Program-made: the position numbers and the translations under genes
The notes under the pieces: model-generated
Databases searched by the model: none
What the model was told of the DNA's origin: nothing
The model's input: the letters and a program-made list of their open reading frames with translations, nothing else
In this document: one piece after another, positions 1 to 17,783 of the stretch
How positions within the stretch are numbered: the first letter of the stretch is position 1
Layout of the letters: the number at the start of each line of letters is the position of its first letter
Source of the DNA: Gammaproteobacteria bacterium
GTDB taxonomy: Bacteria; Pseudomonadota; Gammaproteobacteria; SZUA-140
NCBI GenBank assembly: GCA_021648525.1
Contig: JAKISP010000015.1
Coordinates: forward strand, 1-64,000
DNA: 64,000 bases
Reading direction: 5' to 3'

Positions 1-878
1 GTTACGGTAATGGCGACACGATGGAGGATGCGCGACAAGCTTGTGGTGCAGGTGGTGAGCGCAACAGTACCCTGGCCGGTTCCAGTCTTAACAACATGAC
101 GTTTACACGCGGCAATATTGCCTGGCGGGTAATGTGGAAAAATATGTTTCTACGCAGCGATAAACGCTTAATGGAAATGATGATGAATCTCTCTGGCACA
201 GTCATCCTGAGTAAAGATTTAAGCAATGAAAATTCCGCCACAGAGACCCGAACATTGCCCTCGATTTTACACACTCGGCGGGGTGAACTCCTTAATGCAC
301 TACTGGAAGGCAACCAGTCTGTCACGATCCAGGGCTGTGTCTCTGATAGTGATGAGATGGCCTGTACCAACCTCACCAATAAAACCATTCAACTTGGTGC
401 GAATAACGGCCTGAATGATCGAGTCATCGTCATTATGACCGGAATCGCTGACAAGATTCGTAACCGTCAGGCGTTGGCCAGTAACGAGATCGGTCTGCTC
501 AGTGCCACCAAAATTCCCATTTACAAAATCCTCAATGTCGCCAGCGCCATGAGTGGCTCAGTGGTCACCAATCAGACCTCAAAATATGCAGACATCGTTT
601 CCAAGGATATTCTCTACAGCTACATCAATGATCTACTCGACATGGTGGTGGCTTCGACTACCAGCAGCACGTTTATGGCGAGTGACGAGGGTAAGGAATA
701 TAAAAAAGGGGTCGCTGAAGCGCGTCAACAAATTGCACTGATGAAGTCTGCAAACTTCAACGATCTATCACGCCATGTAGATATGATCCGTGAAACGCAA
801 CTCTATGAACGGATGTTGGTCGCCGCTATGTCACCTGCTTTAGCCGAGAGTATGCGATACGCAGGTTCTCTTAGATAA
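1..878 (+). CDS. TraH-like ICE conjugation protein (TIGR03755/PFL_4711 family), 5' end cut by window
   Basis: The frame is open to the left edge, so the N-terminal part is missing; about 290 residues are visible. The visible part resembles the C-terminal half of the TraH-like proteins of integrative conjugative elements, with the segment around 'SLNNMTFTRGNIAWRVMWKN' and 'EMMMNLSGTVIL' followed by a mostly helical tail. Family members act in the periplasm or outer membrane as part of the conjugative type IV secretion machinery. It lies 20 bases before traG in the same orientation, the normal order for ICE transfer regions, so the two are probably one transcript. The assignment rests on recognised family pattern and synteny. 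Confidence 0.82.
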   Translation, partial: YGNGDTMEDARQACGAGGERNSTLAGSSLNNMTFTRGNIAWRVMWKNMFLRSDKRLMEMMMNLSGTVILSKDLSNENSATETRTLPSILHTRRGELLNALLEGNQSVTIQGCVSDSDEMACTNLTNKTIQLGANNGLNDRVIVIMTGIADKIRNRQALASNEIGLLSATKIPIYKILNVASAMSGSVVTNQTSKYADIVSKDILYSYINDLLDMVVASTTSSTFMASDEGKEYKKGVAEARQQIALMKSANFNDLSRHVDMIRETQLYERMLVAAMSPALAESMRYAGSLR

Positions 879-898
879 CGCAGGAGAGGTAAGCATCA

Positions 899-3709: not shown

Positions 3710-3994
3710 CAGTGAGGTGTACTCGTCATCATCCAAATGCGAACCATATACCCCATAATGGTGGAATCGTTGATCGAATTCTTCCTCATCCTCTCTTCGC
3801 CGCATCTCTTCTAACTTTTTCTGCCTTACAGGAGAATTGATCGGAGCCAACGCCGCAGGTTTGGGAAAGAATATTCGAGTAAAACAATACGCCCCAATAG
3901 CCAGACCTAGCAACCAGTGAGTAAAGTATCCAACCACCACTGCCAAAAACAGGGCCATCAGTGAATCCATGATTACTAGGACTACTTTTCTCAT
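3686..3994 (-). CDS. Small inner-membrane protein, convergent with traG (DUF3742-like or entry-exclusion candidate)
   Basis: This 102-residue protein has two adjacent hydrophobic stretches at about residues 3-35 and then a charged tail with 'EEMRRREDEEEFDQRFHHY' and an acidic C-terminus. The ATG at 3994 is preferred over an upstream TTG at 4018 because GGAGG sits 7-8 bases before it. It runs against traG and overlaps the end of traG by 24 bases. ICEs of this class often carry a small DUF3742 membrane protein next to traG, and in SXT-like elements the exclusion protein Eex lies beside traG. Neither name can be proven here; the membrane topology and position are what is seen. Confidence 0.6.
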   Translation of the reverse strand: MRKVVLVIMDSLMALFLAVVVGYFTHWLLGLAIGAYCFTRIFFPKPAALAPINSPVRQKKLEEMRRREDEEEFDQRFHHYGVYGSHLDDDEYTSLLVEEIID

Positions 3995-4019
3995 CGTCTT
4001 GCCCTCCAAATGCTCCAAT

Positions 4020-4972
4020 GAATCTTAGGGCATATTGATGACACAGACCACTTTTTTATTTAGATTGGCAAAACAGATCACCGGAATTTGAGCAGTTAGG
4101 CCATCTGGTTAGAATCCAACCTGACAGTTCACCATGCATTGCAGACGTTGGGTAGCGGCCGCTAAATGCCGGTAGTGTCGCGAGAGGAGTCGCTCGAAGC
4201 TGATCATTGGGTTTCTGACGAGCCCAAATTTCTTTCAAATATTCTCAGCGTGTAACTTGATGATTGTCAGGATATAATTCAGTTTTGTTATGATGGGTGT
4301 CCGGCTAAGCTCTGCTCAACCCACATCTATCATTAACGTATGGAGGGGGAAAGGGGGTGGAGGGATTGAAATGTAGTCACCTGTTTGGGTTGGTTAATAA
4401 ATAATCCCTCCATCCATTTTTTGCTTTTGTACAGCATTCGTCATTCTAGCGCGACCAAAGGAAGTCTCTTCAGGGGGAGGCCGGAATCCAGATACCACTG
4501 AACTAGCAGTGTTTGATGTCGGTACTTCATGTGTACGGATCCCTTGATCCTGAAAGAGTTGCTGGTGCTAGTAAGCACCTCGCTTTTCCAGGGCCCCGAG
4601 ATCGACCAATACCTGATGAAAAAACGACGAAGCGAGACTCAGGATGAAATGTTACAGCGGCAAGGGTTACTGGTATGAAATTTATTCCGGACAGTAATGA
4701 GTCAGAGTGGGCTTTTTTGTGCTTGGGAGTTTGTTGCGCAGAATAATCTTTGTCCTACAGATATTCTGGTGTTTGTATGTCATGAAGTTGTTGTTAGTAG
4801 GGTTGGGTGTGCAGTGAACTAAGTATCGTGCCCCGGAATTCCATGTCGGAATCCAGAAAAAAGAAGTGCTTAAAATGCGAGAGGGTGGCGACTCACTGTG
4901 CCACATCTCTCGCATTCTATATGTGGGCTATAGTGTAGTGCGACGTGCATGTGGTCAAAAAAAACATAACGA
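4020..4972. other. 950-bp stretch without a convincing gene
   Basis: No reading frame here has both a good ribosome site and a recognisable product. A 49-codon plus-strand frame at 4529-4678 has coding-like composition ('LILKELLVLVSTSLFQ') but no clear ribosome site and may be a relic of an ICE gene. A strong hairpin lies at 4874-4916. Confidence 0.5.
4874..4916. repeat. Long hairpin (10-bp plus 5-bp stem)
   Basis: AATGCGAGAG (4874-4883) pairs perfectly with CTCTCGCATT (4907-4916), and inside it GTGGC (4885-4889) pairs with GCCAC (4900-4904) around a 10-base loop. No T-run follows on the plus strand, so it is not a classical terminator. It lies just downstream (minus sense) of the small basic protein gene at 4973-5122 and could be its transcript end or a recombination or transfer site of the ICE. 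Confidence 0.6.
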
Positions 4973-5122
4973 CTATTTTTTTGGCCTCTTTCCTTTATGC
5001 TCATCTTGGCTTAATAGTGATGCGCCCATAGAGCGAATTTCCCTTGGGGTAGCCTTTCCTGTTTTCATTGCTTTTGATGCAATAGACGAAACTTTATTGC
5101 CAGTTTTTTTACGTGCAGTCAT
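4973..5122 (-). CDS. Tiny lysine-rich basic protein (49 aa)
   Basis: The 49-residue product starts 'MTARKKTGNKVSSIASKAMK' and contains 'GASLLSQDEHKGKRPKK'. It resembles short basic proteins with repeated 'ASKxL...SxAGSALSQ' patterns that occur near DUF3892 genes, ICEs and prophages; no function is established for them that I can name. GAGG lies 7 bases before the ATG at 5122, which decides this start over an upstream in-frame one at 5185. It is 56 bases downstream of the DUF3892 gene in the same orientation, so the two probably form one transcript. The charge suggests nucleic-acid binding, which is inference only. Confidence 0.6.
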   Translation of the reverse strand: MTARKKTGNKVSSIASKAMKTGKATPREIRSMGASLLSQDEHKGKRPKK

Positions 5123-5178
5123 GTGAAAACCTCGTGATTTAATATTTCCCCTAATGGGTAGAATGGGTTTGGTTGAAA

Positions 5179-5439
5179 TTAACAATCAGGTAAATCACCC
5201 AAGTTGTTTTTGCTGGTGCTATCTCGGTCTGTTCGGAGATACTTGCCACTTCTTCCGTTGGCAACATGAATCTCAGTCCGACCGCTTTTCCACGGTACAT
5301 GGTAGGTGTGAATACCACTCTCAATATCCCTTATTGCATCGGTCTTACTTCTTGGCGACCATGCCTGTCCCGGATCGCATAGTTTTGTGATGTCTCCATC
5401 TCGGTCTTTCCCCGTATTCCTTACAGCTCGATCACTCAT
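5179..5439 (-). CDS. DUF3892 domain protein
   Basis: The 86-residue product fits the DUF3892 pattern: 'GKDRDGDITKLCDPG', then 'WSPRSKTDAIRDIESG', a 'HTYHV' strand, and the C-terminal 'KYLRTDRD...NNLGDLP' motif. The domain is small, presumed cytoplasmic, and has no known activity; it is common in mobile-element cargo. AAGGA lies 8 bases before the ATG at 5439. It is divergent from the XRE regulator gene at 5573, and the shared intergenic region carries palindromic operator-like sites, so the regulator may control both directions. Confidence 0.75.
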   Translation of the reverse strand: MSDRAVRNTGKDRDGDITKLCDPGQAWSPRSKTDAIRDIESGIHTYHVPWKSGRTEIHVANGRSGKYLRTDRDSTSKNNLGDLPDC

Positions 5440-5480
5440 AGTGTTTTTCCTTGATAATTAAATAAATGTCATATATATTT

Positions 5481-5496
5481 TGACGAAATCGTCAAG
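5481..5496. promoter_or_regulatory. Perfect palindrome, likely operator of the XRE regulator
   Basis: TTGACGA-AA-TCGTCAA is a perfect inverted repeat with 7-bp arms. It lies 41 bases before the DUF3892 start and 77 bases before the XRE regulator, and a related site follows at 5553. Size and symmetry match lambda-repressor-type operators; the link to the neighbouring regulator is inferred. Confidence 0.6.
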
Positions 5497-5552
5497 TGTT
5501 AGGCTAAAAAATAAGGCCTAACGGCCTAGCGTTTTTTATCGTCAACAATAAC

Positions 5553-5568
5553 TATACGGAACCGTCAA
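5553..5568. promoter_or_regulatory. Second, imperfect operator-like site next to the XRE start
   Basis: TATACGG-AA-CCGTCAA shares the AA centre and the right arm YCGTCAA with the perfect palindrome at 5481; the left arm is degenerate. A further half-site TCGTCAA lies at 5539-5545. The site ends 4 bases before the ATG at 5573, where a bound repressor would block expression of its own gene. Confidence 0.5.
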
Positions 5569-5572
5569 TTTG

Positions 5573-5914
5573 ATGTCAACACCTAAAGAATCATTGTTCA
5601 AACTGAGATTGTTACAAACACGGAAGATGCGGAAATTGAATCAGGATGAGCTTGCTAACAAAGCAGGTTTACCTTCAACCGCTATTTCTCATTTTGAATC
5701 AGGCGCTAGAAAGCCCTCATTTGATAACCTCAGAAAGCTTGCTGATGCATTAGAGGTTTCAATAGATTATTTAATGGGTAGAGTCGATAGCATCAGTGGC
5801 GATCGATCAATGGAGGCTGAAATATTTCGTGACTATGAAAACCTCACCGATGATGATCGAGAATTAGCTCGTGATTTTATGGCGAGACTTGCAAAGCGTA
5901 ACAAAGACAAATAG
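5573..5914 (+). CDS. XRE-family (lambda cI-like) transcriptional regulator
   Basis: The 113-residue protein has a helix-turn-helix at about residues 8-62 ('LNQDELANKAGLPSTAISHF', 'DNLRKLADALEVSIDYLMGR') and a short C-terminal helix but no peptidase or dimerisation domain. ATG at 5573 is chosen; an in-frame TTG directly before it (5570) is possible. It is 13 bases upstream of an ImmA-type metalloprotease gene. In ICEBs1 and related elements such pairs work as repressor and anti-repressor protease: the protease cuts the repressor after DNA damage or signalling. The role in this ICE is inferred from that pairing. The region is clearly more AT-rich than the transfer genes. Confidence 0.85.
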   Translation: MSTPKESLFKLRLLQTRKMRKLNQDELANKAGLPSTAISHFESGARKPSFDNLRKLADALEVSIDYLMGRVDSISGDRSMEAEIFRDYENLTDDDRELARDFMARLAKRNKDK

Positions 5915-5927
5915 CAGTGAATGTTGA

Positions 5928-6797
5928 ATGACTGAAATATGGAAATCTCGTTCAACGAAACTTGGTGAAAACTTTGCCAAAGAGCTAAAGATCACTTCGT
6001 TACCTGTTGACCCTATTGAAATTGCGGAAGAACTAGATATTTTCGTAGAGCCATTACCAGCTGATAAAAAAGGGGTTTCTGGGATGCTTGTAGAGAGCAA
6101 TAATAATTTCGGTATTAAGTACGCCACATATGTCGACAATATTGGTTTTCAGAATTTCTGTGTTGGGCATGAACTAGGTCATTACAACTTACCTGGTCAC
6201 TATGAGCAACTTATGAGTAACGGATACCACGAATCAACTGCTGGCTTTGTTTCTAAAGAAAGGTATGAGTTGGAAGCAGATCATTTTTCTGCTGGCTTAT
6301 TAATGCCGAGTTATTTGTTTAATGCTGAGTTGAATAAATCTCAGGTTGGCTTTAAGGCTATTGACGTCTTATCACAAAAATGCAAGACATCATTAACAGC
6401 AACAGCCATTCGTTATGCTCAAAAAACACCTGATCCTATAGCCATAATTATTAGTGAGGGACAAACTATACATTACTGCTTTATGTCCGACGAGATGAAG
6501 GAAATCAAGGGGCTGACGTGGATAAAAAAAGGTTCACGATTATCTCAAAATACCGTTACCTCTCGATTTAATAAAATACCCCAAAATATATCAAATAGTA
6601 ATCAAGTAGAGGGTGAGGCTACATTGCTTGATTGGTTTGGTAGTTATTTGGAGTATGAGGTAAATGAAGAGGTTATAGGGCTGGGGCGTTACGGAAAAAC
6701 TTTGACTGTGCTCACCATAGATGAACTACCCGATCAAGAAGACATAGATGATGAAAACGACCTCATCGAGTCTTGGACTCCTAGGTTTAAGCGTTAA
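5928..6797 (+). CDS. ImmA/IrrE-family metallo-endopeptidase
   Basis: The 289-residue protein carries the zinc-protease motif HELGH at residues 81-85, followed by the family motif 'ELEADHFSAGLLMP' at about 114-127, whose Glu supplies the third zinc ligand. The C-terminal 120 residues are variable and probably sense a signal or partner. Proteins of this family cleave the XRE repressor encoded next to them. Here the gene follows the regulator by 13 bases in the same orientation, which fits co-transcription. A hairpin with a T-run at 6828-6849 closes the unit. The substrate is inferred; the fold and active site are visible. Confidence 0.85.
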   Translation: MTEIWKSRSTKLGENFAKELKITSLPVDPIEIAEELDIFVEPLPADKKGVSGMLVESNNNFGIKYATYVDNIGFQNFCVGHELGHYNLPGHYEQLMSNGYHESTAGFVSKERYELEADHFSAGLLMPSYLFNAELNKSQVGFKAIDVLSQKCKTSLTATAIRYAQKTPDPIAIIISEGQTIHYCFMSDEMKEIKGLTWIKKGSRLSQNTVTSRFNKIPQNISNSNQVEGEATLLDWFGSYLEYEVNEEVIGLGRYGKTLTVLTIDELPDQEDIDDENDLIESWTPRFKR

Positions 6798-6827
6798 ATT
6801 GTGAACAGGGAAACCCGGGGCATGGAC

Positions 6828-6849
6828 AAAAGGGGACGCTACCCTTTTT
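6828..6849 (+). terminator. Rho-independent terminator after the ImmA gene
   Basis: AAAAGGG (6828-6834) pairs with CCCTTTT (6842-6848) around a 7-base loop, and the T-rich arm serves as the uridine tail. It lies 30 bases after the stop codon of the metalloprotease gene. Confidence 0.65.
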
Positions 6850-6907
6850 CTAGTGCCAATAACTTAGACCGTAGGCACACTACTATAGCGGGAGGCTTTT
6901 AAACAAT

Positions 6908-7092
6908 TCACCAATACTCAGGTTTGATAATTGGTTTCTTACGAGTGGGTATCATCCCTGGAAGATGAGAGCTGCTCAGCTCATCCTCTGCGATCAATGG
7001 GGTCAGCGTGAAGCTCCCCCATTTTAACGGATACTTTAAATCAGCGACAATGTCGCTGATTTTGCTTCCAATGACAGCTCATGGCTGAAAGT
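6908..7092 (-). pseudogene. Possible truncated gene relic
   Basis: The minus strand has a coding-like frame without a usable start, reading '...SDIVADLKYPLKWGSF' and later 'LIAEDELSSSHLPGMIPTRK' before a stop at 6908-6910. An in-frame stop lies just upstream of the readable part. I do not recognise the family. The composition looks like protein sequence, so it may be the C-terminal remnant of an ICE cargo gene. The rest of the gap (6850-7339) holds a 9-bp perfect hairpin at 7041-7059 (TCAGCGACA-A-TGTCGCTGA) and nothing else I can support. Confidence 0.3.
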
Positions 7093-7339
7093 TCCAGTTG
7101 GATTTCAATACATCAAGGTCTGGTTTGTCTATTCAGCTGACCCACGCACTATAAACGCTAATGTCAGCGGTTTGGCTTAGCAGCCAGTCTGTTGTTACAA
7201 CCCTCGCCGGAAAAGATGTCAGATAGTCTGAGTTACTACACATAAGATGAAAAATAACTCTCCAATACCTTTAAGTTGCGTTTGGCTAACCAATTCTGGC
7301 AAGCTTACTTTTACTTGCCATATGAAAAGAAACGAATGC

Positions 7340-7753
7340 CTACTCTGCAACTTTGCCATCGAGATGAATATTTAACGTCTTTAGAATTTTCTGCAATGTA
7401 GGAGTGTTGGTATTTTGATAACCTTCCTGCTCGTATCGGGTAATCTGCCTTGCACTTACGCCAACTTTTCGACCAAACGCATCAACACTCATGTGAGCGG
7501 CTATTCGATAGCGAATAGGCGTCATCATCAAGTCATCCAGTGAATGGATCTCAATATCTGACGGTTCACTGTTTTTCAGATCATCATACTCTTGCATGTT
7601 TGATCGAATTTCGCCGACCAGTTCCTGCAATTGTGTTCTGTTTGCTTTATCTATGATATCTGGAACATCATCCCTTTTCGGAGAAGAAAGCGATGCAGTT
7701 AACATGTCTAGTTGTTTCTTAGCTGCCGCGTATTGTTTATCACTCGTAATCAT
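7340..7753 (-). CDS. HTH (XRE-type) antitoxin-like regulator
   Basis: The 137-residue protein has a variable N-terminal half and a C-terminal helix-turn-helix at about residues 83-130 ('MSVDAFGRKVGVSARQITRY', 'PTLQKILKTLNIHL'). This layout resembles HigA/MqsA-type antitoxins, in which the DNA-binding domain autoregulates the operon. It overlaps the preceding DUF6932-type gene by 4 bases (ATGA), so translation is coupled and the two products are probably partners. An inverted repeat upstream of the pair (8211-8246) could be its operator. The antitoxin role is inferred from organisation. Confidence 0.7.
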   Translation of the reverse strand: MITSDKQYAAAKKQLDMLTASLSSPKRDDVPDIIDKANRTQLQELVGEIRSNMQEYDDLKNSEPSDIEIHSLDDLMMTPIRYRIAAHMSVDAFGRKVGVSARQITRYEQEGYQNTNTPTLQKILKTLNIHLDGKVAE

Positions 7754-8187
7754 GCTGAATCTCCCAACTTCACGACAATGATTCCTTTTGGATCACCATC
7801 ACGATTTACCTGGAAAAACTTAGGAAACGGCAAACCACTTCCCGCCTCAACAATATTTGCTATAAAAAAATCCAATCCATACTTGAGTTTCATTTCGGCT
7901 CTGGAACCCAGGAAAACGCGATCCAATTTTTCAGTATCCACAGCAGATGTGTATTCCCAACAGCCATCAATATCATTAGGTGCTTCTTTATCGGTGATAA
8001 AGCTACCGTCGATCCATAGTGTTCTAACACCTGACATCTCAAAATTACTCGCAGCCTCACGCAACCCACGCATTAATAATTTTCTACGATCAGTAGAAGA
8101 TCCATACATTGCCTCTACTTCAGCCAGGGAAGCTTGATGCTCTCCTGGCGGTAATTCTCCATTTGTCTGTAGTGCAGGAATACCCAT
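7750..8187 (-). CDS. DUF6932 nucleotidyltransferase-like protein, candidate toxin of a two-gene module
   Basis: The 145-residue protein begins with a short region containing 'LPPGEHQASLAEVEAMYG', then 'STDRRKLLMRGL', then 'WIDGSFITDKEAPNDIDG'. The last motif has the Gly-Ser (61-62) and Asp-x-Asp (72, 74) arrangement of the nucleotidyltransferase fold, as in MNT/AbiEii-like enzymes. The family is known mainly as DUF6932. Its stop overlaps the start of the HTH gene. A toxin that modifies RNA or proteins, held by the HTH partner, is a reasonable model but not shown. The start at 8187 has GAAGGA 11 bases upstream, a rather long spacing. Confidence 0.68.
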   Translation of the reverse strand: MGIPALQTNGELPPGEHQASLAEVEAMYGSSTDRRKLLMRGLREAASNFEMSGVRTLWIDGSFITDKEAPNDIDGCWEYTSAVDTEKLDRVFLGSRAEMKLKYGLDFFIANIVEAGSGLPFPKFFQVNRDGDPKGIIVVKLGDSA

Positions 8188-8210
8188 CTATACAAATATC
8201 CTTCGCCTTT

Positions 8211-8246
8211 ATTATGACTATTGTATCATGACACATTAGTCATTAT
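8211..8246. promoter_or_regulatory. Inverted repeat upstream of the DUF6932/HTH pair
   Basis: ATTATGACTA (8211-8220) is nearly the reverse complement of TAGTCATTAT (8237-8246), one mismatch in ten. It lies 24-59 bases before the first gene of the pair, where a promoter would be expected, so it is a candidate autoregulatory operator. Confidence 0.45.
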
Positions 8247-8464
8247 CTATATCGGCCAAAATTTGCCACATTGAAGTACTCTTTCAAGTTTACTTATAGT
8301 AGTCCTTATATTTCACAGATGAAAATACAATAAGGATCAACATGTTATATTGACTTATCTTACATCCCAAGCTACCCCAGCGTCATCTCAAAGCATCTAC
8401 CCTTTAATATTGCCTCAAACTCATATCACCATACGATTCTTGTCCTATATGAGGTAAACTCCGT

Positions 8465-8640
8465 TCTGCGAGCCATATGGCTCGCCGGAGCTTCAAAACT
8501 CCGCACGAAGCGGTTGGTATTACCGTTATTAATGCCGCCTTTCGACCTGTTATGGCCGGGAGGCGGCGGTGTATGTCCAGGACTCCGGTCTAAAGACCGT
8601 CGCGGTCGTCTTCGTGCGACTTTTGAACTCCCGGCCGCCA
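8465..8640. ncRNA. Candidate structured non-coding RNA or folded ICE site
   Basis: This GC-rich segment in AT-richer surroundings has many stable pairings. An 18-bp perfect palindrome lies at 8468-8485 (GCGAGCCATATGGCTCGC). CGGAG (8486-8490) pairs with CTCCG (8499-8503). A long-range 9-bp stem joins GGCCGGGAG (8554-8562) to CTCCCGGCC (8628-8636), enclosing local hairpins built on GGTC-TAAA-GACC and GACCG-TCG-CGGTC. No convincing frame runs through it, and it ends 47 bases before the small gene at 8687. It could be a leader RNA, an sRNA or a transfer origin; I do not recognise a named family. Confidence 0.45.
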
Positions 8641-8686
8641 TTAATTTGGTGGCTTTGTTTTTATTTAAACAGGGAGAGACATAGCC

Positions 8687-8974
8687 ATGCACGACCAACC
8701 CGATGAAGACACAGCTCAGGACACCGACACGCCTGAAGACAATTTACTCTATACCAATCCACTGCTCAGTGAAGATATCCCCACTGAAAACGCTCGTGCT
8801 GTTCTGGCGCTACTGACATACATTGACCTAAGTGAATCCACATTAGGCGTAGAAGGTAATCACGGGCTTATTTTGGTACTTGAATGGCTGCGACGCTCTC
8901 TGGCATACACTGGCCAGGGAGATGAACTGGCGATCCCAGTCTCAACCACCAGGCCTCAGAAGGACTCTGAGTAG
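8687..8974 (+). CDS. Hypothetical small acidic protein
   Basis: The 95-residue product has an acidic, disordered N-terminus (about residues 1-25, rich in Asp, Glu and Thr) and a helical core 'ARAVLALLTYIDLSE...GLILVLEWLRRSL'. The start has AGGGAGAG about 10 bases upstream. I do not recognise a family. It sits directly after the folded GC-rich segment and upstream of the relaxase region, so it probably belongs to the ICE core or its control. Confidence 0.5.
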   Translation: MHDQPDEDTAQDTDTPEDNLLYTNPLLSEDIPTENARAVLALLTYIDLSESTLGVEGNHGLILVLEWLRRSLAYTGQGDELAIPVSTTRPQKDSE

Positions 8975-9309
8975 AACATCTATTTTTCTTTGGCTTTCCA
9001 AGCCCAGCGAGTATGCCTACGATCCATAAATGTCTATGTCGAGGAAGACCCAAAACTACTACGGCTGGTTATCGCAAACAGTAATTCGGAAATCACAAAA
9101 GGGGATATAGACTCAAAATGGATTTGATAATGGAAGGGGATTATTAATGGAAAGGCCTTACCCGAAAGGGCCTTATAAGATGAAATGAGAAAAAAGGGAA
9201 AGGGATCCCCCTAACCAAGCACCTCTCTCTGAATCAACAATAAATCTTATCTGTTTGAAAAAGATTAATCGTAGCCATTGACAATATTGGAGTGATAAAA
9301 CACTCCACA
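8975..9309. other. Gap before the relaxase unit with two small hairpins
   Basis: No gene is supported. AAGGCC (9152-9157) pairs with GGCCTT (9169-9174). GGAGTG (9289-9294) pairs with CACTCC (9301-9306) directly before the next gene and could cover a Shine-Dalgarno-like GGAG. The region upstream of a MobH relaxase is a possible place for oriT, but nothing here identifies one. Confidence 0.4.
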
Positions 9310-9729
9310 ATGACTACGACAAACTTTACGCCAGCTTATCAACACTTACTGACCACCGGCATGGCCCGCTGGGTTCCGGCATTGATGATTTTACTACAGC
9401 ACTACGAAGGTATTGAACGCGCCCTGGAGCCGGAAGAGGTGCCACTCAACTACTTAGCAGAACAGTTGGAGCAAATAGGCGATACACCTATGGCTGACCG
9501 GGAACGACTATTTTTCAATGTCGTGGCCACGATGCCCCTCTTCTACTACCGGGTCGCAGGGAATGGTAAATCATGGAACCCTGAGAATGAAACATTCCGG
9601 CAGTTTGAACATAGAACCGGCACGGTCTCCATCTGGCAAGAATGGACGCCACACTTATCAAAGTGCGAAGTTAAAAATTGGCTGTACGCTAACTTACCGA
9701 TTTCAGGCGATGCTTGGGCTACGGCGTAA
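9310..9729 (+). CDS. Hypothetical protein upstream of the relaxase
   Basis: The 139-residue product starts 'MTTTNFTPAYQHLLTTGMAR'. It has no signal peptide or membrane segment, and I do not recognise its family. Its last 20 bases overlap the start of the relaxase gene, suggesting coupled translation and a role in DNA processing. The start is uncertain: GTG at 9292 is an alternative, and the hairpin at 9289-9306 lies over the initiation region. Confidence 0.55.
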   Translation: MTTTNFTPAYQHLLTTGMARWVPALMILLQHYEGIERALEPEEVPLNYLAEQLEQIGDTPMADRERLFFNVVATMPLFYYRVAGNGKSWNPENETFRQFEHRTGTVSIWQEWTPHLSKCEVKNWLYANLPISGDAWATA

Positions 9730-11428
9730 ACCCAAACCACCGCACTCCGACTGCCTTCGAGTATTGTTGCCGCTTGACCTTATTAGTCAACGCTCAAAAC
9801 AGATAAAGGTAATTCAGCAATTAGCGGGGGTACCCAAAGCTCACTGGAAATCGTTATATCTGGATGCGCTTCTAGCCTTTGCCAGTTATGTTCAGCAGCT
9901 CCCCGCTTCCGAGGCCCATCACCATTCGGGTGTTGGTGGGTTACTCGATCATAGTCTTGAAGTAGTCATCCATGCCTTGCGTGCCCGTCGCGGCCACTTA
10001 CTGCCCCAGGGGGCCGACGCTGAAGAGATCACCGCAAAGAAAGATCTCTGGACTTACGCCATATTCAGCTCCGCGTTATTACACGACATTGGCAAACCTC
10101 TGATGGACCAAAACGTCACACTCTACGATAAAGAGGGGCACGAGCTTGGAGCCTGGGACGCTTTGACAGCCCCGATGACGAGAGATGGCTGGTATCGCAT
10201 TCGTTACCGAAAAGATCGCCAGCACAAGCTTCACGAACGAGCTGCGCTATTACTATCCAGACTAATATTGCCTACACCTGCGCTCACCTGGCTGGGGAGC
10301 GACCGCTTACTTCTCTCTGTATGGATGGCAACCGTCAGTGGTGTGTATGAAGACGCCGGGGTAATAGGTGAAATCACCCAGCAGGCTGATGGGCAGTCAG
10401 TAGCGAATAATCTGGGGGCTTCCGGGACAACTGCCCAGTTACCTGGGGCACGATCACCGCTACATGAACGCCTGTTGACCGGTTTTCGATTCTTACTAAA
10501 GGAGAACCAGATTCCTCTTAACCGCAATGGCGCGGCGGCATGGTTTGATGGTGAGCGGCTATGGCTGGTCAGTAAACGCGGTATCGATGCCATACGTGAA
10601 CACTTGATACAGGAAGGTCATGCCGGTATCCCTACACGCAACGACCGAATATTCGATGAGCTGCAACAGAACAAGGTACTAACACCCAACGGGGATCGCT
10701 CGATCTGGAAAGTCGAGGTTGCCGGTGATGACTGGGCGCATACGCTGACGTGCCTCTGTTTTCCCGCCTCAAGGGTATGGCCTGACCCTAATTCCCGCCC
10801 TGACGTTTTCACGGGAACGGTTACTCCGGTAGATGCAGGTACTGATACTGAGACTGGTAAGACACAGGAACCCCTGGCGGTCAAAGCAAGTACACCAACG
10901 ACGATTATTAAACCAACAGGTAGTGAGGCTAAAACTGAGTCCTCGGCAGGATTTGACCCCGTTGAGTTCTTTGCAAGCACTCAAACTGAAAACCACCCGT
11001 CTGACACGGAAATTAGTCCCGGTATCCAGTCAGCGCCCACGACAAACAATGATACGCCAGTAGAAGATGATGAAGACCCTGGAAGCCGGTTCCGCCACTG
11101 GCTTTATGACGGTCTACGCAGAGATAAGTTTGAAACTAACTCAGTACGTGCGCGTATTCATCGAGTGGAAGAAGGTTTGCTGTTGGTCAGCCCTGGAATT
11201 TTCAAAGACTACGACAGAGAGGATTGGCAGCGCGTACAGAAGCGTTTCCAAAAACTCAAACTTCACCGCAAAACGCCACAGGGCACAAATATTTACACCT
11301 ATCAAGTCACGGGCAAACGAAATAAGAGCCGCATTAAAGGCTTTCTGATCGAAGAACCTGAAACCGTGTTTGAGGGCGTCTCACTTCCGGCACCTAATCC
11401 CCACTTAAAGCTGGCAGAGGAGTTATAA
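9710..11428 (+). CDS. traI: MobH-type relaxase TraI (TraI_2 domain, ICE family)
   Basis: The 572-residue protein carries the TraI_2 domain with an HD-like metal site: 'HHHSGVGGLLDHSLEV' at about residues 70-85 and 'LLHDIGKPLMD' at about 123-133. A linker of about residues 360-460 is rich in Thr, Pro and Glu, followed by a C-terminal domain like that of the PFL_4751/TIGR03760 relaxases. Such enzymes nick oriT and lead the DNA strand into the recipient. ATG at 9710 is chosen because the frame upstream of it does not look like protein. The gene abuts traD, whose ribosome site GAGGAG is in its last codons. Confidence 0.88.
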   Translation: MLGLRRKPKPPHSDCLRVLLPLDLISQRSKQIKVIQQLAGVPKAHWKSLYLDALLAFASYVQQLPASEAHHHSGVGGLLDHSLEVVIHALRARRGHLLPQGADAEEITAKKDLWTYAIFSSALLHDIGKPLMDQNVTLYDKEGHELGAWDALTAPMTRDGWYRIRYRKDRQHKLHERAALLLSRLILPTPALTWLGSDRLLLSVWMATVSGVYEDAGVIGEITQQADGQSVANNLGASGTTAQLPGARSPLHERLLTGFRFLLKENQIPLNRNGAAAWFDGERLWLVSKRGIDAIREHLIQEGHAGIPTRNDRIFDELQQNKVLTPNGDRSIWKVEVAGDDWAHTLTCLCFPASRVWPDPNSRPDVFTGTVTPVDAGTDTETGKTQEPLAVKASTPTTIIKPTGSEAKTESSAGFDPVEFFASTQTENHPSDTEISPGIQSAPTTNNDTPVEDDEDPGSRFRHWLYDGLRRDKFETNSVRARIHRVEEGLLLVSPGIFKDYDREDWQRVQKRFQKLKLHRKTPQGTNIYTYQVTGKRNKSRIKGFLIEEPETVFEGVSLPAPNPHLKLAEEL

Positions 11429-13465
11429 ATGTCATCCGATGCCTTTGATAATCGGTTACGTCCTGTCGTTGAGTTTCTACCCGTAGCGATCTTTATGGTG
11501 GGTTCGGCACATCTCGCATTTCAACCATCACTCTTTTTTCCTATGTTACCCAGCATCTCAACGGTGACAGCTATCGTTTTTTTCGGTCTGGGAAGTTGGC
11601 GACTGTGGCAGGCTTGCGGTGTTTGTCGCTATCAAAAGCATCTGAGAAGGCTGCCACGCTATACGTTAGACGCTGACGATATCCCCCTCTCATACCACAA
11701 ACTTTTCCTGGGTCGTGGATTTAAGTGGGATCAACGGCATACCCAGCGACTTGTTGAATCACGCAACCCCAACGCACAGAAATATCTGGAGCAAGGCAAG
11801 TTCTATCGCTTTTCCCGGTTAATGGAGATTAATCTGGAGCATTCCAGGATATTATCCTGGCTACCCCGAATAACAAGACGGGATGCCTGGTGGAACCCAG
11901 TACGCCCCTTACCGCCAGTGGGCGGTTTTCCACCTTTACATGGTGTCGGTAGTGAAGACGAAACTGATACCTGGATGGCACTTGGGGAGCGTGTGGGTCA
12001 TAAGCTCGTATTGGGTACGACACGCGTGGGAAAAACACGCCTATTAGAAATACTGGTCAGTCAGGATATTCGTCGTGGCGATATTGTCATCGTCTTTGAC
12101 CCCAAAGGTGATATAGATCTGCTACGCCGGATGCATGGAGAAGCAAAACGTGCTGGAAGACTAGACCAATTTCATATCTTTCATTTGGGCTTCCCTGATA
12201 TATCCGAGCGATATAACCCGGTCGGCGATTTTGCACGAATAACGGAAGTCGCCTCCCGAATATCTACTCAGCTCCCATCCGAAGGGAACAGTTCAGCGTT
12301 TAGAGAGTTTGCCTGGCGCTTTACTAACATCGTTGCTAGAGCGCTTGTCGGCCTGGGTCGCCGACCGGACTACAACACCATTGCCCGTTACGTGACCAGC
12401 ATTGAGCCACTACTCACTGACTACTATCACCTATGGCTGGATAAAGAAGGCCCCGAAGGCTGGAGAACAGCGGTACAACGTATTGAGGGAACGTTGAATG
12501 AAAAGAATCTCCCCATGGCGCTTCGTGGGCGAGACTTCCATGCCATTGCATTAACCCGCTATGCCAAAGAGCATGGCCTGTTCGATTCTGTCGCGGATGG
12601 TCTACGCAGTGCCTTTGAATATGACAAAACTTACTTCGATAAACTCACCGCCAGCCTATTACCACTGCTCGAAAAACTGACCACTGGGCGCATCGGAAAA
12701 CTGCTCTCACCTGACTATGCCGATAGCGCGGATCAACGTCCGATCCTCGACTGGATGCGGGTTATTCGGGAACATGGAATTGTCTACGTCGGCCTTGATG
12801 CATTAACCGATGCCGAAGTCGCTGGGGCAGTGGGTAATTCCATGTTTGCCGATCTGACCTCCATTGCGGGTCAACTCTATAAGCAGGGTGACACTCAGGG
12901 GCTTCCCTTGCTCCCTGAGCATAAAACTGTGCATAAAACGATTCACGCTGACGAATTCAATGAGCTGATTGGTAATGAATTCATTCCACTGCTTAATAAA
13001 GCTGGGGGTGCGGGTTTCCAGGTGACAGCCTATACCCAAACCGCCAGTGACATTGAAGCGGGAATTGGAGATCTAGCCAAAGCCGGTCAGATTACTGGCA
13101 ACCTCAATACACTCATCATGTTGCGGGTAAAAAACGAGATCACCGCTCGCATACTGACCGACCAGCTACCCAAAGCCCGCATCTACACCAAACTGGCCGC
13201 TTCCCAGGTGACAGATAACAACGATCCCGACTCTGATATTGACTTCACCACTCGAAGTGAAGACCGCTTAACCGAGACGGAGATGGACATGCTCATGCCT
13301 GCCGATCTTATTCAACTCCCCAAGGGGCAAGCCTTCGCCTTACTGGAAGGCGGTCAGCTCTACAAACTACGCCTGCCGCTCCCTGGCAGCGATCCACTGT
13401 TGCCCAGGGATATGGCTGAAATTCGACGTGAACGCTTGAGCTATTACGGCGTTGACGATGCCTAA
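11429..13465 (+). CDS. traD: TraD-type conjugative coupling protein (SXT/TOL subfamily)
   Basis: The 678-residue inner-membrane ATPase has two N-terminal hydrophobic segments (about residues 10-30 and 36-58), a Walker A motif 'GTTRVGKT' near residue 195, a Walker B 'VIVFDPKGD' near residue 220 and a later 'HADEFNEL'. The length and the combination match TIGR03743. It recruits the relaxase-DNA complex to the secretion channel. GAGGAG lies 6 bases before the start, which directly follows the relaxase stop; the end overlaps the next gene by 8 bases, so traI-traD-DUF4400 is an operon. Confidence 0.92.
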   Translation: MSSDAFDNRLRPVVEFLPVAIFMVGSAHLAFQPSLFFPMLPSISTVTAIVFFGLGSWRLWQACGVCRYQKHLRRLPRYTLDADDIPLSYHKLFLGRGFKWDQRHTQRLVESRNPNAQKYLEQGKFYRFSRLMEINLEHSRILSWLPRITRRDAWWNPVRPLPPVGGFPPLHGVGSEDETDTWMALGERVGHKLVLGTTRVGKTRLLEILVSQDIRRGDIVIVFDPKGDIDLLRRMHGEAKRAGRLDQFHIFHLGFPDISERYNPVGDFARITEVASRISTQLPSEGNSSAFREFAWRFTNIVARALVGLGRRPDYNTIARYVTSIEPLLTDYYHLWLDKEGPEGWRTAVQRIEGTLNEKNLPMALRGRDFHAIALTRYAKEHGLFDSVADGLRSAFEYDKTYFDKLTASLLPLLEKLTTGRIGKLLSPDYADSADQRPILDWMRVIREHGIVYVGLDALTDAEVAGAVGNSMFADLTSIAGQLYKQGDTQGLPLLPEHKTVHKTIHADEFNELIGNEFIPLLNKAGGAGFQVTAYTQTASDIEAGIGDLAKAGQITGNLNTLIMLRVKNEITARILTDQLPKARIYTKLAASQVTDNNDPDSDIDFTTRSEDRLTETEMDMLMPADLIQLPKGQAFALLEGGQLYKLRLPLPGSDPLLPRDMAEIRRERLSYYGVDDA

Positions 13466-14120
13466 CCAGCAGCGACTCACTGGACTTCTATGGCTTGGCA
13501 AGTGGTTTCTACTGATTACATTGTTAGTACTGATCGTGGATCTCTTCTGTGTCTTTCTCCTGTGGTCGCCCGATGGTGTATGGCGCTTACAAAACGTTCT
13601 AAACAAAGAGGTAGCGCTGCTTGGCCTGCCGCAATCCGACAACGATTTTCTTGCGGGGGTCATCAAATCATTCTACGACACTGTTTTTGTCTCAAGTGGC
13701 ATCGATGGCATGATGCGTCACGCTGCCAGTTTACCTCCTGCCGAGGAAAGCCAACAAACAGCTATTGATTTTACAGAGGCCCTACGGCCAGTCATTGAGA
13801 CTGCCATGGTTGGACTACAACTGTTTGCCCTAAGAGTTGGCATTCTAATCCTCACTCTGCCGCTTCTAGTGCTTGTAACACTCACTGCAATGGCAGATGG
13901 ATACGCTGGTTGGTTTCTGCGCCGCACAGGGGGCGAGAGAGAATCTGGATTCATCTACCACCGGGCAAAACGCAGCCTGGCATGGTCGTTTTTATTTCTA
14001 TGGGCCATTTATCTCATTCCACCAATCCCTATGGATCCCAAATATCTGATCCCGCCTTTCTTACTTGCCGCTGGGATTGCAACACGGCTACATGTCGCGT
14101 TTTTCAAGAAGTACCTATGA
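13458..14120 (+). CDS. ICE membrane protein, TIGR03747 (PFL_4697)/DUF4400 family
   Basis: The 220-residue protein has four hydrophobic segments: near residues 10-34, 117-145, 175-190 and 194-212. The stretch 'ADGYAGWFLRRTGGERESGF' followed by 'IYHRAKRSLAWSF' is typical of the family, which always lies downstream of TraD in ICEs of this class. ATG at 13458 overlaps traD by 8 bases; TTG at 13452 is an alternative. The molecular role is unknown, but it is assumed to be part of, or close to, the transfer apparatus in the inner membrane. Confidence 0.85.
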   Translation: MPNQQRLTGLLWLGKWFLLITLLVLIVDLFCVFLLWSPDGVWRLQNVLNKEVALLGLPQSDNDFLAGVIKSFYDTVFVSSGIDGMMRHAASLPPAEESQQTAIDFTEALRPVIETAMVGLQLFALRVGILILTLPLLVLVTLTAMADGYAGWFLRRTGGERESGFIYHRAKRSLAWSFLFLWAIYLIPPIPMDPKYLIPPFLLAAGIATRLHVAFFKKYL

Positions 14121-14615
14121 TGAGTGGTTAGCAATGCTATCCAAATCCAAAAAACCTTGGAAAAGTAACCTCCAGGGGGGTGTTATCCGGGGAGTTAAAT
14201 GGGCAACAGACGAATAAAATAGATTCATATTCACAGCCATACGCAATGTGACTCAGGATCTAACTTGACCAGGAAATCTCAGAACAGACCGAAGATAAAT
14301 ATTCTGTCGTCAGAAGGCACACCTGACCTCCGTGTTGCAGTCAGATCCTTTTTACCAATGGTCATGGATGAACTTAATGAGAACAATAAGAGTAAGTCAG
14401 GTGTTGGTAGATGCGACGCTAAAGACTCTACTGAAACACGGACACCAGAATAGAAAATTCACTAATTGGCAGGCAATACCCTGCACAGGAAATAAAGTCC
14501 CTCGAATTGGCCCCTTTTTGCTCTTTCGGGTTGCATACCAGCCCCATCATTATGTTAAATAGAACATAGCAAAGCTTGATCTCACTGGGCAGAATCAACG
14601 AACAGGGGCAATGAC
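14121..14615. other. Gap between the transfer operon and the integrase
   Basis: About 495 bases with no gene I can support; short frames here lack ribosome sites and recognisable content. It presumably contains the integrase promoter. Confidence 0.4.
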
Positions 14616-16166
14616 ATGGATTCTCAAACACAAATTGGAAAAGCTGCGTTATACCTGCGCTCCAGTAAGGATCGATCAGATGTGTCAATTGATGCCCAAC
14701 GCCGAGAACTTACAAAACTAGCAAAAAGAAAAGGATTATTTATCGTTGAAACTTTCGAGGATGTAGTCGAATCAGGAAAAGATGAACGCCGAGCAGGATT
14801 TCAAAGCCTACTTAGCAATCTCAAGTCACGTTCACGAACCTGGAAGTATCTCTTGATCCTGGACACCTCTCGCCTTGTAAGGGGACGTTATTTCGCGCAA
14901 GTCTTCAAACACGAATGCAAACGAGCTGGTGTGGAGATCATTTTCTCAAAATTCCCTGAAGATTTAGACCCAATCTCCAGGGTTGTACTGGAATCTGTTT
15001 TCGAGGCTATGGATGAAGTTCACTCGCTTATGTCTAAAGAAAAAGGATTAGCGGGTATGACTGAAAACGTACGGCAGGGATTCAGAGCAGGCGGTCGTGC
15101 GCCTAAAGGCTATAAATTAGCCCGAATTGATACAGGGGTCATGCGTGACGGGCAGATGGTCACAAAGTCCAAACTCGAAACCACGGAAGAGGCACCGATA
15201 ATAGCCCGCTTTCTCAAAGCACGTGTTGAGGGCATTCCCCGTACACGAGCAGCAAGACAAACTGGCCTGGAGCACATCTCTCCTACCACGCTCATCGGGA
15301 TGGAGTGGAATGCACTCACTTACGCCGGACATACGGTCTGGAACGTACACAATGAATGTACCAGCGGAGAGGGCTATAGAAATAAACCAAAGAGGCGTCC
15401 CCGACCAGAGTGGGTCATAAAAAATGATACGCACGAAGCACTCATCACCACTGAAGAAGCCGAACGACTACTAGAACGATTAGAGTCAAGCAGTTACTCT
15501 AAATCCCGAAGAACACCAGCAAAATATCTCCTATCAGGAATCCTCAAAACACCTGACGGACAAACATGGTTTGGGCAAGGCGGCACACAATACCGTACAA
15601 AGCCTCCTAAGGGGCAAGGCAAAGGACGTTATTTACATGCGGTTGACCTTGATGGCCCTATCATCAAAAAAATATTGAAGGATTTGAAATCAGCCGACTT
15701 TGTTAAGCTACTTGCACTCGAAGCAAGGAAACAGTGCGAAGCGGTTGCAGGCGACCCAGCTTCCGAGCTACGTCCCGAATTTACGGCAATATCAGATCAA
15801 ATATCCAAAATGATGGACTTGGCAGGTCGCCTGGATGATCCAGACCCTGCTCTGCGTAAAGTAGAAGAATTAGAGAAGCGCAGAAAAAGGCTTTCGCATG
15901 AAATTGATCTGAGAGAGCAAGAACATACCGCCACCGCAGTATTCCGCAATATCACCGAAGATCATATAAGAACAATATTGAACCAGCTTGAAGAACGCCT
16001 AAAGCAAGGCAATGCAGAAGCAATGAAAGATACGCTGATTAATATGGTTGAAAAAATTGTCCTCGACCCGGAGTCCCTAGATTGTAAAATCTATTACAGG
16101 ATTCCAGTCGAAGACAGGAATAATATGGCGTCCCCAAGGGGATTCGAACCCCTGTTACCGCCGTGA
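14616..16166 (+). CDS. Large serine recombinase (ICE integrase) running into tRNA-Glu
   Basis: The 516-residue protein has a resolvase-type catalytic domain with 'ALYLRSSKDRS' (catalytic Ser likely residue 17) and 'LDTSRLVRGRYF', then a 'Recombinase' domain starting 'GGRAPKGYKLARI'. The following region aligns in position with a zinc ribbon ('YLLSGILKTPDGQTWFGQGG') but lacks the usual cysteine pairs. A coiled-coil-like C-terminus follows. AGGGG lies 7 bases before the ATG. The final 13 codons and the stop are antisense to the tRNA-Glu gene, so the natural C-terminus appears to be shaped by integration at this site. It should catalyse ICE integration and, with an excision factor, excision. Confidence 0.9.
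   Translation: MDSQTQIGKAALYLRSSKDRSDVSIDAQRRELTKLAKRKGLFIVETFEDVVESGKDERRAGFQSLLSNLKSRSRTWKYLLILDTSRLVRGRYFAQVFKHECKRAGVEIIFSKFPEDLDPISRVVLESVFEAMDEVHSLMSKEKGLAGMTENVRQGFRAGGRAPKGYKLARIDTGVMRDGQMVTKSKLETTEEAPIIARFLKARVEGIPRTRAARQTGLEHISPTTLIGMEWNALTYAGHTVWNVHNECTSGEGYRNKPKRRPRPEWVIKNDTHEALITTEEAERLLERLESSSYSKSRRTPAKYLLSGILKTPDGQTWFGQGGTQYRTKPPKGQGKGRYLHAVDLDGPIIKKILKDLKSADFVKLLALEARKQCEAVAGDPASELRPEFTAISDQISKMMDLAGRLDDPDPALRKVEELEKRRKRLSHEIDLREQEHTATAVFRNITEDHIRTILNQLEERLKQGNAEAMKDTLINMVEKIVLDPESLDCKIYYRIPVEDRNNMASPRGFEPLLPP
16126..16166. other. Likely ICE attachment junction (attR or attL) within tRNA-Glu 3' end
   Basis: The integrase frame and the tRNA-Glu gene share these 41 bases on opposite strands. 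ICE genes lie to the left, ordinary chromosome genes (tRNA-Ala, gltX) to the right. The crossover point must be in or just left of the tRNA 3' end. The matching repeat at the other ICE end is outside the window, so the core cannot be delimited. Confidence 0.6.
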
Positions 16167-16202
16167 AAGGGCGGTGTCCTAGGCCGTCTAGACGATGGGG
16201 AC
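16126..16202 (-). tRNA. tRNA-Glu (TTC)
   Basis: On the minus strand the 5' end GTCCCCATCGTCTAGA pairs at the acceptor with TTGGGGAC. The anticodon arm CCGCC-CTTTCAC-GGCGG has anticodon TTC, and the T arm reads AGGGG-TTCGAAT-CCCCT. CCA is encoded. The sequence is close to the Escherichia coli tRNA-Glu. Its 3' end hosts the ICE. Confidence 0.96.
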
Positions 16203-16239
16203 CAGGTGTTACTGCATTGCTTTTGGGACAGATCGAATC

Positions 16240-16315
16240 TGGTGGAGCTAGGCGGGATCGAACCGCCGACCTCTACACTGCCAGTGTAGCGCTCTCCCAG
16301 CTGAGCTATAGCCCC
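16240..16315 (-). tRNA. tRNA-Ala (GGC)
   Basis: On the minus strand GGGGCTATAGCTCAGCTGGG begins the gene. The anticodon loop CTGGCAG gives anticodon GGC, the T arm is GGCGG-TTCGATC-CCGCC and CCA is encoded. It lies 37 bases upstream of tRNA-Glu, in the same orientation, so the two are likely co-transcribed. Confidence 0.96.
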
Positions 16316-16367
16316 TCAAAAGCGAAGCCGAACTTTACGATATTGAGCGTACTGCTGTCAACAAAAA

Positions 16368-17783
16368 CTATGCTGCAGATGCTATTTCTTCTATCATTTT
16401 TAACGCATGATCAAGACGTTGCAACACTCGCTCACGCCCAATCAGAAATAACGTCTTATCAATTGATGGTGAAACGGTACCACCCGTTACGGCTACACGC
16501 AGTGGCTGAGCTAGCTTTCCAAGTTTTAGCGCCTGCTCTTCGGCGGTCGCCTTCACTGCGCCATGGGTGCTCTCTGACGTCCACTCTGCAAGGGTAGCCA
16601 GGTTATCACGCAATGCACTCAATCCAGCCTGGATCGCAGGCTTCAGCTGTTTGGCCACCGCCTTCTCATCATAGACCTCAATATCCTTATAAAAATAGAC
16701 ACTCGCCTCTGCCATCTCAACCAACGTCTTGCAGCGCTCCTGCTGAACCTTCACCAGTTCAATCAGGTCGGGGCCATTGGTTGGATCGATATCGAGATTG
16801 CCGAGGTGCCAGCTGAGGTGATGCGCGATATGCTCCGGTGAGCTCTCTTTGATGTAGTGCTGATTCAACCACAGCAGTTTGCTGCTGTTAAAGGCCGATG
16901 CGGAGCTGTTGATGTCTTCAACATCAAACAGATTAATCATCTCATCGAGACTAAAAATCTCCTGGTCACCATGAGACCACCCCAGGCGCACCAGATAGTT
17001 CAGCAGCGCCTCAGGCAGATAACCTTCTTCGCGATACTGCATCACACTCACTGCGCCGTGACGCTTGGAGAGACGCTTACCATCATCCCCCAGAATCATT
17101 GGCACATGCGCATAGAGCGGCGCTTTACCGCCTAGCGCTGCGAGAATATTAAGCTGACGCGGGGTATTGTTGAGGTGGTCATCACCACGGATCACGTGAC
17201 TCATCTCCATATCGAGATCATCCACCACCACGGTCAGGTTATAGGTTGGGCTACCATCAGAGCGCGCAATGATCAGATCATCAAGCTCGCGATTATTGAA
17301 TACCACACGGCCACGTACCAGATCTTTCACCGTCACTGAACCTTCGGCCGGATTACGAAAACGCACTACCGGGCTGCCACTCTCGGCCGGTGGTACGGTT
17401 AGATTACGACAGCAGCCGTCATAACGCGGCTTCTGTTTATTTGCCATCTGGTCGGCACGCAGGGTTTCCAGCCGTTCCTTAGCGCAGTAGCAATAGTAGG
17501 CCTTGTCTTCATCGAGCAGCTTATGGATCACTTCCTGATAACGGTCCATGCGCTCGGTCTGGCGAAATGGGCCTTCATCGTATTCAAGCCCCAGCCAGGT
17601 CATCCCCTCAAGGATGGCGTTAACCGATTCAGTGGTAGAGCGCTCAAGGTCGGTATCTTCAATACGCAGAACAAATTTACCGCCATGTTTGCGTGCATAT
17701 AACCAGGAATAAAGCGCGGTGCGTGCCCCGCCAACGTGTAGATAACCCGTTGGGCTGGGGGCAAAACGTGTACGTGTAGTCAT
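16368..17783 (-). CDS. gltX: Glutamate-tRNA ligase
   Basis: The 471-residue class I synthetase charges tRNA-Glu with glutamate in the cytoplasm. The N-terminus '[20 protein letters not shown]' contains the HIGH-type motif (HVGG, residues 16-19), and the KMSKS-type motif 'KRLSKRHG' lies near residue 238. The Cys-rich insertion 'CYCAKERL...CC' around residue 105-130 fits a zinc-binding GluRS. ATG at 17783 is chosen because it matches family N-termini and has GGAG directly upstream. Its substrate tRNA gene lies just downstream, in the same orientation. Confidence 0.97.

Follow-up and report, generated by a model that had tools for sequence, protein, structure and literature searches.

The integrase gene at one end of an integrative and conjugative element (ICE) in contig JAKISP010000015.1 of a gammaproteobacterium (assembly GCA_021648525.1; the 64,000 nucleotides analysed are referred to here as the window) runs without a stop codon into the tRNA-Glu gene in which the element is integrated. 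From the comparison with related genomes we consider it very likely that integration exchanges the last residues of the protein, so that a tail of about 16 residues carried by the free element would give way to seven residues read from the complement of the tRNA.

The integrase junction in the window and in related genomes

The integrase was called as an open reading frame (ORF) of 516 amino acids which meets no stop before its entry into tRNA-Glu. Its 3' end lies 41 nt inside tRNA-Glu(TTC), at the 3' end of the tRNA and read on the tRNA complement, the stop being reached at 16166 and the tRNA gene extending to 16202; the C-terminus of this integrated (attL) form is DRNNMASPRGFEPLLPP, followed by the stop. 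The features concerned, with both tRNA genes as called by ARAGORN, are as follows.

14616 to 16166, forward strand: integrase gene in its integrated (attL) form, 516 amino acids, supported by the ORF, PF00239, PF07508 and the relative L020; stop within tRNA-Glu
16143 to 16166, forward strand: putative swapped tail FEPLLPP and TGA stop, complement of the tRNA-Glu T-loop, T-stem and beyond
16126 to 16202, reverse strand: tRNA-Glu(TTC), the integration target, from ARAGORN and the comparison of attL, attP and empty sites
16240 to 16315, reverse strand: tRNA-Ala(GGC), a neighbouring host tRNA kept beside tRNA-Glu in most relatives

Residues 10 to 155 of the integrase match the Resolvase domain PF00239 (E=2.8e-18), the N-terminal catalytic domain, and residues 235 to 290 match the Recombinase domain PF07508 (E=1.3e-5); on the strength of these domains it is a large serine recombinase. 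The best NCBIfam matches, XisF, YneB, CcrA and CcrC, were all far under cut-off, leaving the integrase with no named equivalog, and a search of solved structures returned only a catalytic domain of a small serine recombinase. Long helices are predicted at residues 386 to 436, the best-scoring part of an otherwise poor structure model, in agreement with the extended, coiled-coil-bearing C-terminal portion of large serine recombinases. The original prediction, of a serine rather than a tyrosine integrase at an ICE end in tRNA-Glu with its frame finishing 41 bases inside that gene, is borne out by the ORF and ARAGORN calls for the coordinates, by the two domains for the integrase class and by the tRNA call together with the TraD, TIGR03747, TraH, TraG and MobH genes for the ICE end.

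Relatives are designated by genome (G), contig (C) and locus (L), where L020 is G385, L022 is G386:C135 and L042 is G003:C17; several of these genomes are metagenome-assembled or incomplete. The integrase is rare, being found in 5 of 369 genomes of the class at E<=1e-20 with the window's genome counted. The sole full-length relative, in G385, shares 73-74% amino acid identity, enters tRNA-Glu in the same frame and ends MASPRGVEPLSPP. Junctions of the attL type which enter tRNA-Glu in the window's frame were found in G385, G076, G002 and G111, the target in G111 being a tRNA-Glu with a CTC anticodon, and partial or decayed integrase copies lie at tRNA-Glu in G076, G002, G017, G111, G162, G093 and G009. 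The overlap between integrase and tRNA-Glu is thus confirmed as real and is not due to chance, because the attL junctions of other genomes enter the tRNA in the same frame; judged from these loci, the junction is a trait of the integrase family and not of a single genome.

Other site types were also recovered. At the apparently empty tRNA-Glu sites G003:C16 and G004:C21 a terminator lies directly past the tRNA and there is no integrase frame. The attR copies G001:C89 and G004:C3 have a tRNA-type terminator to the left of the core and a conserved P' arm to the right, and G076:C31 holds two further attR copies. Three attP junctions (G003:C17, G006:C153 and G386:C135) have the integrase C-terminus joined to the P' arm, without a tRNA. 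As the integrase piece at G003:C17 (residues 423 to 511) is 98% identical in protein to that of the window, this junction is the best stand-in for the attP of the window's own element, which would carry the same P' arm as its relatives. The left flank of the G001 attR agrees with the flank of tRNA-Glu in G005 (82.8% across 87 bp), and the P' arms of G001, G003 and G004 share 77-80% identity across 94-131 nt.

Comparison of the sites places the attachment site of the window as listed here.

16126 to 16143: 18-bp block TGGCGTCCCCAAGGGGAT, common to the empty tRNA sites, attL and attR of close relatives, with at most one difference in the attP copies
16136 to 16137: AA, the inferred crossover dinucleotide, in the middle of CCCC-AA-GGGG (16132 to 16141), from the P half-site dyad and serine-integrase chemistry
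16117 to 16135, reverse strand: left P half-site, reverse complement GGGGACGCCATATTATTCC, which encodes the integrase residues preceding the core

The sequence CCCC-AA-GGGG is present in all of the empty, attL, attR and attP sites. Around the core in attP lie a left half-site, GGGGACGCCATnTTATTCC, and a right half-site, GGGGATnCGACCTTATnCC, which together form a dyad about AA; the right half-site, mirrored on the left, takes up the opening 19 nt of the P' arm (GGGGATKCGACCTTATNCC). The dyad has 12 of 18 matches in G006 and G106 (P<0.001) and 10 of 18 in G003 (P=0.009). In these three genomes the motif TTATNCC stands at equal distance from AA on both P sides, and it is absent from the tRNA half and from the left, chromosomal side of attR in G001 and G004. 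Two P half-sites with a dyad, and a tRNA half without TTATNCC, make up the layout expected of a serine integrase. Crossover would accordingly be placed at AA, inside the integrase ORF between codons P507 and R508, and the integrated element would supply the acceptor 3' strand and CCA of the tRNA.

An alternative tail in the attP and attR arms

Past the residues MASPRG, the integrase frame in attP and attR does not stop at the core; in the arms nearest to that of the window it runs on into C or F followed by DLIPQFFVTSKIVGF and a stop. A tail of 16 codons and a stop is found in six of the seven arms tested (G001, G003, G004, both G076 arms and G106). The translations past MASPRG are given below.

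G004: FDLIPQFFVTSKIVGF, stop
G001: CDLVPQFFVKSKVVGF, stop
G003: CDLIPQFFVKSKIVGC, stop
G386: CDLIP, early TAA, then FFVKSKIAGF with the distal stop kept
G076, two arms: FDLIPWIHAISQVLNI, stop, and FYLIPQLKVTSRNINI, stop
G106: FDLIPQLRATSEILYI, stop
G013, altered or incomplete: YALIPQLRVTSRVVS, continuing
G016, altered or incomplete: ADPIPQLFVT, to the contig end

Substitutions among the four closest arms fall on codon positions 1, 2 and 3 in the ratio 9:12:37 within the tail, as against 37:38:51 in the 54 nt past the stop. The synonymous share of codon differences in the tail was 0.56 compared with 0.22 in column shuffles (P=0.002), and the distal tail outside the half-site, taken alone, showed a synonymous excess of the same significance (P=0.002). 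No such excess was found in the other two forward frames of the P' arm (P=0.51 and 0.79), and that in the DNA past the tail stop was not significant. This codon-position bias and synonymous excess indicate that the free-form tail is probably coding sequence, and the P' arm probably holds a real integrase tail which is under protein-level constraint and exists only in the free form. The last predicted strand of the integrase, at residues 489 to 494, is of low confidence and the tail falls beyond it; as the integrase domains end ahead of the tail, the swap would alter an extension.

In the mechanism that we propose, the integrase frame on the free circle would pass through CCCC-AA-GGGG into the P' arm and end with about 16 codon-conserved residues. 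Recombination with tRNA-Glu would then move the P' arm to attR and fuse the frame with the complement of the tRNA, where it reads FEPLLPP before a stop; integration would thus both restore the tRNA 3' end and swap the integrase tail (16 amino acids for 7), and excision would reverse both. A different 3' end of the integrase gene in the circle had been predicted, and is supported by the attP junctions of G003, G006 and G386, the attR copies of G001, G004 and G076 and the codon-conserved tail; the further suggestion, that the C-terminal sequence is coupled to the integration state, is right at the sequence level.

Several observations weigh against this mechanism and should be considered with it. 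No intact full-length integrase was found in the attP form among the relatives, where the attP junctions follow truncated or decayed integrases, and G001 and G004 possess an attR arm with no detected integrase, so that these arms may be old remnants. The 76-contig assembly of the window's genome contains attL and lacks both attR and the P' arm; the att repeat that had been expected upstream in the same genome was looked for and not found, a search of that genome for the core with up to two mismatches yielding the attL copy alone and a search of window positions 1 to 17000 yielding no relevant direct repeats. The half-site dyad is weak in G386 (6 of 18, P=0.29). In G006 and the attR copy G386:C139 there is a different tail, starting CDSIPVLP; the tail is thus not fixed and evolves. 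As regards the codon tests, seven arms are a small sample, column shuffling corrects only partly for shared ancestry, and frame 2 of the reverse strand of the P' arm also gave P=0.002, via common third positions. In two structure predictions (predicted local distance difference test scores of 40 and 48) the quality was too low for the tail to be placed. A reading in which the P' arm codes on its other strand was weighed separately and rejected, since the one scoring frame is interrupted by stops in every arm.

The most serious alternative, which we nevertheless regard as improbable, is that the overlap is a neutral by-product in which compactness accounts for the position of attP at the integrase 3' end, any in-frame stop serves, and conservation of the tail is that of a DNA-level attachment site. 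The first 19 nt of the P' arm do indeed read plainly as a putative binding half-site, in some arms the tail is a different one or is cut short by an early stop, the tail lies past the last predicted strand of a low-confidence model, and the C-termini of DsiB, a recombinase discussed below, diverge beyond the att site (PMC3146451). However, conservation past the half-site tracks the reading frame, both in its third-position excess and in the synonymous excess of the distal portion, neither the remaining forward frames nor the DNA past the stop give a signal, and divergent arms have their stop at the same codon. Somewhat less probable again is the explanation that the junction controls expression, the integrated gene losing its own 3' end and antisense transcription of tRNA-Glu and tRNA-Ala lowering its output. 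In the window the integrase gene is convergent with the two tRNA genes, the terminator beside the empty tRNA-Glu sites sits at attR in relatives, and no terminator-like site was called within 15943-16700, although the consensus scan gave no more sites than shuffled sequence and hence neither supports nor excludes this explanation, which moreover leaves the codon conservation of the P' tail unaccounted for. An expression effect could act jointly with the tail swap, and the effect of the tail may be enhanced by antisense transcripts of the tRNA operon. That the overlap is a spurious extension of a decaying gene which lost its own stop at an inactive ICE end can be considered highly improbable, for although many family copies are remnants (G017, G009, G162, G093) and the assembly does not contain the second ICE end, the integrase gene of the window has its full length, its intact relative in G385 uses the same frame and site, and independent relatives with the same overlap largely refute this view.

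Returning to the tail swap, its most likely functional reading is that the long-tail enzyme of the circle would be tuned for integration and the short-tail enzyme less so. The one-way reaction of serine integrases is today explained by directionality factors and coiled-coil interactions. We tentatively raise the possibility that the tail exchange is a sensor of the integration state, with the 16-residue tail favouring attP x attB and the short, tRNA-templated tail differing in activity, specificity or stability; if true, this would be a control of serine integrase directionality on top of the recombination directionality factor, as the recombination product itself would encode a different enzyme. 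A practical consequence is that automatic annotation of integrase C-termini at attL can mislead with respect to the free element.

The element, its neighbouring genes and wider searches

The contig starts at window base 1, already within the ICE, and relaxase, coupling and mating-pair formation genes lie upstream of the integrase as follows.

21 to 878, forward strand: TraH pilus assembly protein
899 to 3709, forward strand: TraG mating-pair stabilisation protein
9518 to 11428, forward strand: MobH-family relaxase
11429 to 13465, forward strand: TraD ICE coupling protein (TIGR03754)
13452 to 14120, forward strand: ICE membrane protein (TIGR03747/DUF4400)

This gene content marks the element as an ICE that combines a MobH relaxase with transfer genes of the F type. 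Among the relatives, G005:C12 carries the 18-bp core twice next to tRNA-Glu (L044:6770 and 6941), at a spacing of 171 bp and with unrelated sequence between the copies; this is probably what an element left behind on excision or decay. Two or more attachment-site copies lie within about 1.7 kb in G076:C31 (L059, L085) and within 160 bp in G106:C127 (L094), which suggests tandem or repeated integrations at the same tRNA. Next to the full-length integrase of G385, L020:844-7158 carries a Cas9 gene of 1050 amino acids (HNH_4, RuvC_III, Cas9_a), Cas1 and a CRISPR-like repeat array, a probable type II CRISPR-Cas system near the end of the tRNA-Glu island. Large genes resembling those of bacteriophage exclusion (BREX) systems, PglZ-like (892 amino acids) and BrxL-like (345 amino acids), were identified by eye from translations beside the attP remnant of G003:C17 (L042:13953-17778), suggesting a defence island, and AbrB-type and VapC-type ORFs, also called by eye, follow the attP arm behind the decayed integrase at L022:2298-3025 and are a probable toxin-antitoxin pair.

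Wider searches returned little. No match was obtained on viral contigs for the integrase, for its attP-form C-terminus or for either of two attP patterns, nor in a pattern search of 399 genomes across the phylum. In the plasmid and phage collections the whole integrase found distant serine recombinases only (<60% identity) and the attP-form C-terminus found no match, as was the case for a DNA search of plasmids with the attP arm.

Comparison with known systems

The clear functional precedent for this family is the integrase (Int, IntP) of the Myxococcus phage Mx8. It is a tyrosine recombinase with a much larger tail, in which 112 amino acids are replaced by 13, and its target is tRNA-Asp. The Mx8 attP is located inside the coding region of the integrase, and on integration the gene acquires a new 3' end, by which specificity is altered and the integrase is not inactivated (PMC6070905). 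As in Mx8, attP here is inside the integrase coding sequence (attP of G003, G006 and G386; attR arms); unlike in Mx8, the enzyme belongs to the large serine recombinases and is carried by a conjugative element, and the exchange would be of 16 amino acids for 7. The window family thus works like Mx8 but, not being a tyrosine recombinase, is not an Mx8-type member.

Within the open-access literature the closest serine precedent is DsiB of the Dehalococcoides ssrA islands, although an earlier published case may exist. This CcrB-like large serine recombinase has a gene which always overlaps attL at its 3' end into ssrA; its authors proposed that it may be fully functional on the circle only, and its C-termini are divergent, with no coding constraint reported (PMC3146451). 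The family described here shares with DsiB a large serine recombinase gene overlapping attL into an RNA gene, but differs in its target (tRNA-Glu, not tmRNA), in being an ICE and not an integrative island, and in the conserved alternative tail of its attP and attR arms. With tRNA-Glu as target and CcrA and CcrC matches far below cut-offs, it is not of the DsiB/ssrA type.

In mycobacteriophage BPs, attP is inside the repressor gene and the C-terminus differs between the free and integrated states, the free form carrying a degradation tag (PMC4557955); dependence of the C-terminus on integration would be common to both systems, but the split gene here is the integrase and not the repressor. The suicidal archaeal integrases of the SSV type also have the att site inside the integrase gene (PMC8371274), but these are tyrosine recombinases whose gene is fragmented by integration, whereas here only the last residues change. 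Use of a tRNA gene by a serine recombinase is shared with phiRSM1, which integrates at the 3' end of tRNA-Ser with attP between ORF14 (Int) and ORF15 (PMC3816273), and with the mycobacterial actinomycete integrative and conjugative elements (AICEs), which use tRNA-Leu (PMC3218068); unlike in the window family, however, attP of phiRSM1 is outside the integrase and the phiRSM1 recombinase is a small one of the resolvase type. According to the authors of Islander, writing in 2014, no serine integrase was known to use a tRNA gene as its target (PMC4383910), which is contradicted by phiRSM1 and the mycobacterial AICEs (PMC3218068, PMC3816273). The original view put forward for the window, that tRNA targeting is typical of tyrosine integrases and that large serine recombinases mostly use protein-coding sites, holds in so far as tRNA targeting by serine recombinases is uncommon, yet known cases exist. 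The tRNA-Glu-targeting family joins these few recombinases; with respect to DsiB it offers comparative evidence for a possibility that had been a matter of speculation, and with respect to Mx8 it would extend the same principle to another, unrelated integrase superfamily.
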